A stretch of DNA of 64,000 bases from Thermothielavioides terrestris NRRL 8126 (Eukaryota; Ascomycota; Sordariomycetes; Sordariales; Chaetomiaceae), in NCBI RefSeq assembly GCF_000226115.1, contig NC_016462.1:3506488-3570487 (forward strand). The letters are read 5' to 3'. The position numbers and the translations under genes are program-made. The notes beneath the pieces were generated by a model, which saw only the letters and a list, made by a program, of their open reading frames with translations, searched no databases and was not told the DNA's origin. Of this stretch, positions 56,301-57,644 are shown piece by piece. Position 1 is the first letter of the stretch, and each line of letters begins with the position of its first letter.

Positions 56301-56439
56301 TACCCGAGGGCTGAAGGAAAAGTGGGTATTTTCGCCGCCCTCTCTCCTTCCAGGAGAGAGGGGCACAAAATTGCCGGACAATCACCGACACACCAAAATC
56401 TACACCAAACTTTGTTAGTGCAGAATTGAACTTCAAATA

Positions 56440-56844
56440 CCCGAGGGCTGAAGGAAAAGTGGAGATTTTCGTAGCCCTCTCTCCTTCTAGGAGAGAGGGG
56501 CACAAAATTGGTAGACGTCATATAATTGGCGGACAATCACCGATACCTATTTTATACTAAACTTTATTAGTGCAAAACAAAACTTTAAATATCTCAACAA
56601 CCACTTAACTAAACGTAATAAAATTTTAAAATTATAATTTTTAGTAGAATAGCTCTTTATTTTAAAATTTTAGGTTTTCTATCTTAGGGTTAGGGTTATA
56701 GGAGGCTTATTTTCTAAGGGTTAGGGTTATTAGTGGTCAGAGGTAGGTGTCTGTTTTTTATTAGGGTGTCCGCCAATTTTGTGCCCCTCTCTCCTAGAAG
56801 GAAAGAGGGCTACGAAAATTTCTACTTTTCCTTTAGCCCTGGGG
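56440..56844. mobile_element. inner copy of family X (405 bp)
   Basis: It starts CCCGAGGGCTGAAGG and ends with the near-complement CCTTTAGCCCTGGGG, flanked by TA at 56438-56439 and 56845-56846. The first 71 bases differ from the outer copy at about five positions, counted by eye. Its own internal sequence CTTTAAATATCTCAAC matches the outer copy across the insertion point (CTTCAAA, TA, TCTCAAT), so it inserted into the corresponding TA of a sister copy. Confidence 0.85.
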
Positions 56845-56953
56845 TATCTCAATAACGACTTAACTAAAGTTGATAAAACTTTAAAAGGATATTTCCTAAT
56901 ATAATAGCTTTATATTTTGAGATTTTAGTTTTTTTAAGATAGGGTTAGGGTTA
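56684..56953 (+). repeat. interstitial telomere-like motifs inside family X
   Basis: TTAGGGTTAGGGTTA lies at 56684-56698, TAAGGGTTAGGGTTA at 56715-56729 and TAGGGTTAGGGTTA at 56940-56953. The first two are in the inner copy and the third in the outer copy, at matching places, so the motif belongs to the element. All run in the same direction as the telomere 7 kb away. Confidence 0.85.
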
Positions 56954-56989
56954 TATATGTATTTTGTTCCTATAGGTTAGAGTTAACTA

Positions 56990-57540
56990 CAGATGTCGCT
57001 ACCAAAAGAATCCGCACACCGCCCTCCATTGAACCAGCAGAATTAACCGGTATTTACATAGACATACAGATCCAGCCATCTCTCCGATCTGCCCCCTCAT
57101 CCAAGTATGTAGGACGTCTTTTTCCATTATCCTCCTCCTCAACAGAACGACCTTGAACCTCCTGAACAAGCCTTTTTACAATAGTCTACTACAATATTGC
57201 TACGCGGGCTCAAGTATTTACATTTAAGCTGATTGTTCAGCTTGATGATAAGCGGATTGAAGCGTTTACTAGCATTAAAACCAAGGACTTTGAACGACCT
57301 GGCCGTCAAGGCTCTAGCTCGTAGCTTAGGTCAAAAGCACGTCGATAGGATGTTGTTTCGGCTTCTGGGCCTAGTACTGAATAACTTCATTTTTACTAGT
57401 CAGGTAGTTGGATCCAGGAGAGCGTTGGATCCAGGAGAGATTCAGGGTCGGATTCAGGGGGGATAGTGCGGGGTATAATACAATGGCTTACAGGCTTGGC
57501 ATTCAAGGCGGTGTGCGGATTCTTTTGGTAGCGACTTCCG
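56990..57540. mobile_element. second inverted-repeat element (family Y, 551 bp), TA target
   Basis: The ends share GTCGCTACCAAAAGAATCCG plus CACACCGCC as inverted repeats (29 bp exact, about 34 bp with two mismatches) and are flanked by TA at 56988-56989 and 57541-57542. Inside are short broken frames with no recognised transposase and a duplicated TTGGATCCAGGAGAG near 57408-57435. It is inserted in the outer family X copy. Confidence 0.8.
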
Positions 57541-57644
57541 TATAGGTGTCCGGTGAAAAGTGTCTGTCTAGCGATGTTATACCCCTCTCTCCTAGAGGGA
57601 GAGAGGGCTGCGAAAATACCCACTTTTCCTTCAGCCCTCGGGTA

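Follow-up and report, generated by a model that had tools for sequence, protein, structure and literature searches.

Which elements make up the cluster of TA-flanked sequences at 56303..57642, in what order did they come together, and what moved them? The window, i.e., the whole stretch of 64 kb that was analyzed and to which plain coordinates refer, forms the final 64 kb of contig C6 and terminates in TTAGGG repeats, and the nest lies ~6.4 kb from this chromosome end in a genome of 36.9 Mb with six contigs. The middle of the nest is A+T-rich (G+C of 0.31 at 56500-56999 versus 0.53-0.63 in most flanking 500-base bins), and a scan for open reading frames of at least 200 aa found none overlapping 56303-57642. 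Both chromosomal flanks are single-copy and match only themselves in this one genome, in which no unoccupied copy is available for comparison.

Two guests in one host element

By direct reading, the nest consists of a host element of family X (outer X) that carries a second X element (inner X) and an element of a different family, Y. The earlier note had read the locus as two small elements inserted, with TA flanks, into another one, and we found TA at all boundaries; the limits that it gave for both guests and for each of the three host pieces are correct to the base. The features are as follows:

56301..56302, no strand: TA left of outer X
56303..57642: outer X MITE, whole span including guests; a non-coding inverted-repeat element of family X
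56303..56439, + strand: left piece of outer X; it includes the left terminal inverted repeat and ends in a TA target copy
56438-56439: TA target of inner X, left copy
56440..56844, + strand: inner X MITE, complete, 405 bp, in the same orientation as outer X and assigned to a sister subfamily
56685..56698, + strand: telomeric motif TAGGGTTAGGGTTA within inner X
56845..56846, no strand: TA target of inner X, second copy
56847..56989, + strand: middle piece of outer X; its last two bases are a TA target copy of Y
56940..56953, + strand: telomeric motif TAGGGTTAGGGTTA within outer X
56988-56989 and 57541-57542: TA copies at Y
56990..57540, no strand: Y MITE, complete, 551 bp, with terminal inverted repeats of ~34 bp
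57541..57642, + strand: right piece of outer X, running from the second TA copy at Y to the right terminal inverted repeat
57643..57644, no strand: TA right of outer X

When the three pieces of outer X are joined and aligned with 56440-56844, the interrupted sequence resumes exactly, and the two X elements share 79% identity over 372 columns (77% over 376 columns in a multiple alignment). The claim that inner X preserves the empty site of the X-into-X insertion was borne out, as inner X keeps the uninterrupted CTTTAAATATCTCAAC, whereas outer X reads CTTCAAA-TA / TA-TCTCAAT around the insertion. Because the arms of inner X pair over 85 nt with 89% complementarity and many genome copies have the same ends, the nest goes beyond chance. 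The nest had been described as three-layered; the nesting stands, but it has two levels rather than three, inner X and Y being siblings that sit next to each other within a single host element. Similarly, the proposed order of events holds in that outer X was in place before its guests, whereas the nesting does not tell which of inner X and Y came first.

Copies of X and Y in the genome

An initial genome-wide search gave at least 94 matches to the X query (40 scored of 71 candidates) and at least 59 to the Y query, both counts being lower bounds. X MITE copies measure 380-407 bp and Y measures 551 bp. We grouped 13 X-type MITEs in one alignment, in which L002, L003, and L004 are the nearest relatives of inner X (88-91% identity), outer X groups with L006, L007, and L063 (89-93%), a third group comprises L005, L008, L061, and L064, and L062 stands alone; identity between groups is ~73-80%. 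Because the two nest copies have these different relatives, inner X represents a sister subfamily of outer X rather than its copy. Thus, of the earlier claim that outer X is interrupted by a full-length copy of itself, the full-length X guest remains, and identity of subfamily does not (77-79% identical). Nor is inner X the best witness of the empty site: its site is indeed uninterrupted, but L006, L007, and L063 are closer to the host and are uninterrupted at both guest sites, the Y site reading GTTAACTATAGCTG in L006 and L063 and GTTAACTGTAGCTG in L007.

Genome copies with other ends, or insertion sites elsewhere lacking TA, had been named in advance as evidence against this reading, and the reading withstood that test. 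Among the ends located by similarity in the genome stretches retrieved, with each locus counted once, TA adjoins all but one of 61 distinct X ends and all but one of 37 distinct Y ends, a count that took only ends whose match stops no more than three or four bases short of the tip, with badly decayed ends outside the sample. The two ends without TA belong to L075, a diverged X relative whose end was placed by similarity, and to L054 (Y, left end). Both families are short (under ~600 bp), have terminal inverted repeats and a TA duplication, and have a longer transposase-bearing partner with the same ends, as MITEs do; X and Y are new families of a known kind, and the nest as such is ordinary.

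Nested MITEs are already known, and this nest is of a well-known kind. In the part of the carrot study available to us, Stowaway-like MITEs are nested, with DcSto2 inside one DcSto1 and a Tourist-like MITE inside another (PMC3695323). As here, one host thus carries a complete sister MITE with a TA duplication and one an unrelated MITE; unlike here, the elements are from a plant and the guests occupy separate host copies, whereas both guests of the present nest share one host (PMC3695323, same part).

Longer elements with the same ends

The search that the earlier note had outlined, for full elements with matching ends and a transposase, succeeded for both families, with transposase genes found only as remnants and no intact one in either family.

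For family X, we examined eleven 3-kb-class elements with both ends; nine measure 3056-3142 bp, and insertions lengthen L021 and L022. The first 75 bases are identical between the MITE L007 and the full-length L018. These partners carry a broken DDE_1 transposase, and neither of two 3-kb copies has an open frame of useful length, many stops being present in the six frames of three copies. More specifically, DDE_1 exceeds the Pfam cut-off at C6:3032012 (26.2 bits) and C1:3656808 (23.0), and at C5:3331136 (22.3 bits) only together with neighbors in frame. Eight of the 20 listed DDE_1 places in the genome lie inside X-ended elements (both ends seen in six, one end in two), of which five score more weakly than the three over the curated cut-off, and some places outside X elements outscore those within. 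The catalytic residues lie in NVDEIGY, IDSFLGH, and PIDIG; 35 residues separate the second D from the third (DD35D), as counted by hand in the L017 and L024 frames with stops written as X. A Pfam scan for an N-terminal HTH or CENP-B-like domain gave a single match, to HTH_5, which was non-significant (E 0.38) and came from one frame of a heavily mutated gene, and a database search for relatives with the read-through residues of L017 (stops again as X) returned 3273 candidates, none at E 0.001. By DDE_1 and the DD35D spacing, the X partners would be Tc1/mariner elements of the pogo/Fot1 type. Fot1 is shorter than 3.1 kb and has shorter terminal repeats; in this the X partners, with ~3.1 kb and terminal repeats of ~100 bp, are unlike it. 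They are like pogo/Fot1 Tc1/mariner elements in their TA target, DDE_1, and DD35D, Fot1 being placed among the DD35D pogo groups, which are mainly fungal, in the part of the source available (PMC7325037).

Likewise, three Y partners (L049, L050, and L051) have a length of 1.7-1.8 kb, the same ends as Y, and transposase genes that are all broken. HTH_Tnp_Tc3_2 exceeds its cut-off of 31.5 in all three scanned (57.3, 50.5, and 38.3 bits), and DDE_3 gives weak matches under its cut-off in the same three (12.6-17.6 bits versus 28.6); these partners appear to carry a Tc1-type transposase. Fungal Tc1-type elements and their MITEs include impala and mimp, which the Y partners resemble, by description rather than by sequence, in their 1.7-1.8 kb, HTH_Tnp_Tc3_2, TA target, and MITE derivative. 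X and Y would both use TA because they belong to two different branches of Tc1/mariner.

Nesting is frequent in this genome: among 13 X elements of the 3-kb class for which both ends were seen, four are interrupted, by a MITE of another family, W, in L021, by ~1.1 kb in L022, by ~7.6 kb in the copy at C4:1089676-1100310, and by ~250 bp in the copy at C1:5077479. L022 and the Y partner L052 have insertions of ~1.1 and 2.9 kb, with ends TGTTACACG and CGTGTAACA. Family W (L080, L100, L101, and the guest of L021) comprises TA-flanked MITEs of ~370-410 bp with variable telomere-like repeats inside; 40 of its 512 first-look candidates were scored, many 95-97% alike and one of them inside a 3-kb X element, and the list of W matches by itself suggests W within W at C1:5455974-5456756.

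RIP and the relative age of the copies

In the ten pairwise comparisons among five X copies of exactly 3057 bp, transitions number 300-354 and transversions 0-1, an excess that we infer to be the mark of repeat-induced point mutation (RIP), which would also have killed the partners. Within the X MITE groups, the transition/transversion ratio is 0.8-5.7 (18 pairs, three groups), and because this is far from 300 to 1, the MITEs look much less hit by RIP than the 3-kb copies, perhaps through their short length. Counting against lighter RIP of the MITEs, the dinucleotide indices of inner X (TA/AT 1.63; CA+TG over AC+GT 0.65) point to RIP to the same degree as in the 3-kb copies; those of outer X are intermediate (1.30 and 0.84), and those of Y near neutral (1.00 and 1.12).

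Between Y and its nearest copies, L010 and L011, there are 13 and 19 transitions, respectively, and no transversion, which would fit a young copy or light RIP, whereas 6-8 transversions separate the X copies of the nest from their nearest copies. Since the nearest Y copies lack the transversions that the X copies have, there is a weak hint that Y may have arrived last, the nesting itself being indecisive.

History of the nest

The nest almost certainly consists of three non-autonomous cut-and-paste elements, two of them in a host X, most likely mobilized in trans by the transposases of their partners. An X MITE of the L006, L007, and L063 subfamily would have entered a TA ~6.4 kb from the chromosome end; later, a sister-subfamily X MITE would have entered a TA inside it, and a Y MITE another TA of the same host. 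The boundaries, the TA duplications, both empty sites, the common ends, and the transposase remnants are observed. Mobilization in trans we infer, both families having their transposases in broken form: the X MITEs were most likely moved by the pogo/Fot1-type transposase of the 3.06-3.14 kb elements, and the Y MITEs most likely by the Tc1-type transposase of the 1.7-1.8 kb elements, with which they have common ends. The nest is a clean small record of element order, target, duplication, and boundaries that is useful for annotating this genome.

Since the two X copies have the same orientation and are ~77-79% alike, one might propose, instead of insertion, that X was duplicated in tandem or segmentally or that X copies crossed over unequally. 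This is very improbable, as the inner copy is full length, is bounded by a two-base TA duplication after which the outer sequence resumes exactly, and comes from another subfamily, the site being uninterrupted in relatives. An assembly artefact joining reads of different X copies might come to mind for repeats 6.4 kb from a chromosome end, but single-copy continuous flanks, pieces diverged enough to be told apart, and TA at both junctions leave it hardly any probability. Better placed, if still unlikely, is the alternative that the X MITEs use the ends of the 3-kb elements but were moved by a different pogo-type transposase that escaped notice, such as one encoded by a further DDE_1 family in this genome. 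All 3-kb X copies with examined frames are broken, DDE_1 places elsewhere score higher than those in X elements, and the MITEs have transversions where the 3057-bp copies have 0-1 and thus look older than that burst; against this stand the 75-base identical ends of a MITE and a full-length X element, and the 3-kb elements are the source that we favor.

A telomeric motif within the X MITEs

The least ordinary feature, and one worth a second look, is the telomeric motif carried by both X copies. Fifteen X-type MITEs were collected by similarity and aligned (the two copies of the nest plus L002-L008, L061-L064, L075, and L076); TAGGGTTAGGGTTA is exact in 13 of them, with one G-to-A change in L003 and L006. 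Its between-group conservation of 0.988 ranks 1 among 240 interior 14-base windows (mean 0.55), and a second telomere-like stretch, which starts at position 278 of inner X, has a poor conservation of 0.47. Allowing one mismatch, the motif occurs in none of the eleven 3-kb-class X elements examined. Genome-wide, there are at least 40 TAGGGTTAGGGTTAH sites, of which five close telomeric arrays and 35 are interstitial; two repeat families hold 25 of the 35 listed interstitial sites, namely X-type MITEs (16, including L078, found only via the motif) and a repeat, Z (nine), and ten lie elsewhere (one in a W element).

This conservation is open to each of several plain readings: (i) common descent of a few related copies; (ii) RIP immunity; and (iii) a single telomere capture at the origin of the MITE. 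As the sole cause, RIP immunity through lack of CpA/TpG, the dinucleotides that RIP normally targets, is argued against by the finding that 31 of 120 other interior columns never in CA/TG in any copy are invariant versus 12 of 14 in the motif, in a sample of few and related copies. In a column shuffle, which ignores the clustering of conserved columns, a run of 15 was reached in 0 of 100,000 rounds; the shuffle does not single out the motif, because a second run of 14 (AATATCTCAACAAC) would look extreme as well.

It is doubtful, but worth stating, that the motif could be a working site bound by a TTAGGG-recognizing TRF/Tbf1-like Myb protein and kept because binding helps the element; the putative benefit would be a silencing shield, a boundary, or placement near telomeres during transposition. 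In the part of the source available, Tbf1, a TRF-like protein of budding yeast, acts at subtelomeres and snoRNA promoters (PMC7952879). If this reading were true, small mobile elements of this genome (X, W, and Z) would have acquired sites for telomere proteins time and again, and the motif would bear on how MITEs persist where autonomous elements are mutated away; if selection keeps such sites in MITEs, fungal interstitial telomeric sequence would in part be transposon cargo. No published MITE with a telomeric motif is described in the titles or abstract openings returned by a literature search outside which subscription journals mostly fell, and, unlike for the X MITEs, none is mentioned for the DcSto elements in the available part of the carrot study (PMC3695323).

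Ideas on two other features of the X sequence were set aside. The box AAATATCTCAACAAC is not a common genomic motif, occurring with at most one mismatch at 21 places versus 23 for the reversed control, and its six exact occurrences are all in X MITEs. The X ends (e.g., 56475-56499) each contain an 11-bp palindrome with a 3-base loop, in two sequence classes one compensated pair apart. We do not claim that compensation keeps this palindrome: one of 11 pairs changes on both sides (CG in 18, UA in 7, and other in 1 of 26 distinct rows), and the covariation score of 0.084 lies above all 500 shuffles, but one of the slid controls (+2) is higher, at 0.100. This alignment used 30 chosen X ends of 50, omitting most exact repeats, rows with indels, and strongly diverged rows, and the covariation may be one inherited change.

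Repeat Z (L082, L084, L085, L087, L088, L089, L090, and L095) is SINE-like, with a CCGGTTCGACCACTGCGAG tandem part and the telomeric motif, and ends in poly-T or (TA)n. In the middle of the largest contig, L094 (C1:6040831-6040958) consists of ~20 perfect TTAGGG repeats in one direction, perhaps a trace of chromosome fusion, of the healing of a break, or of assembly.
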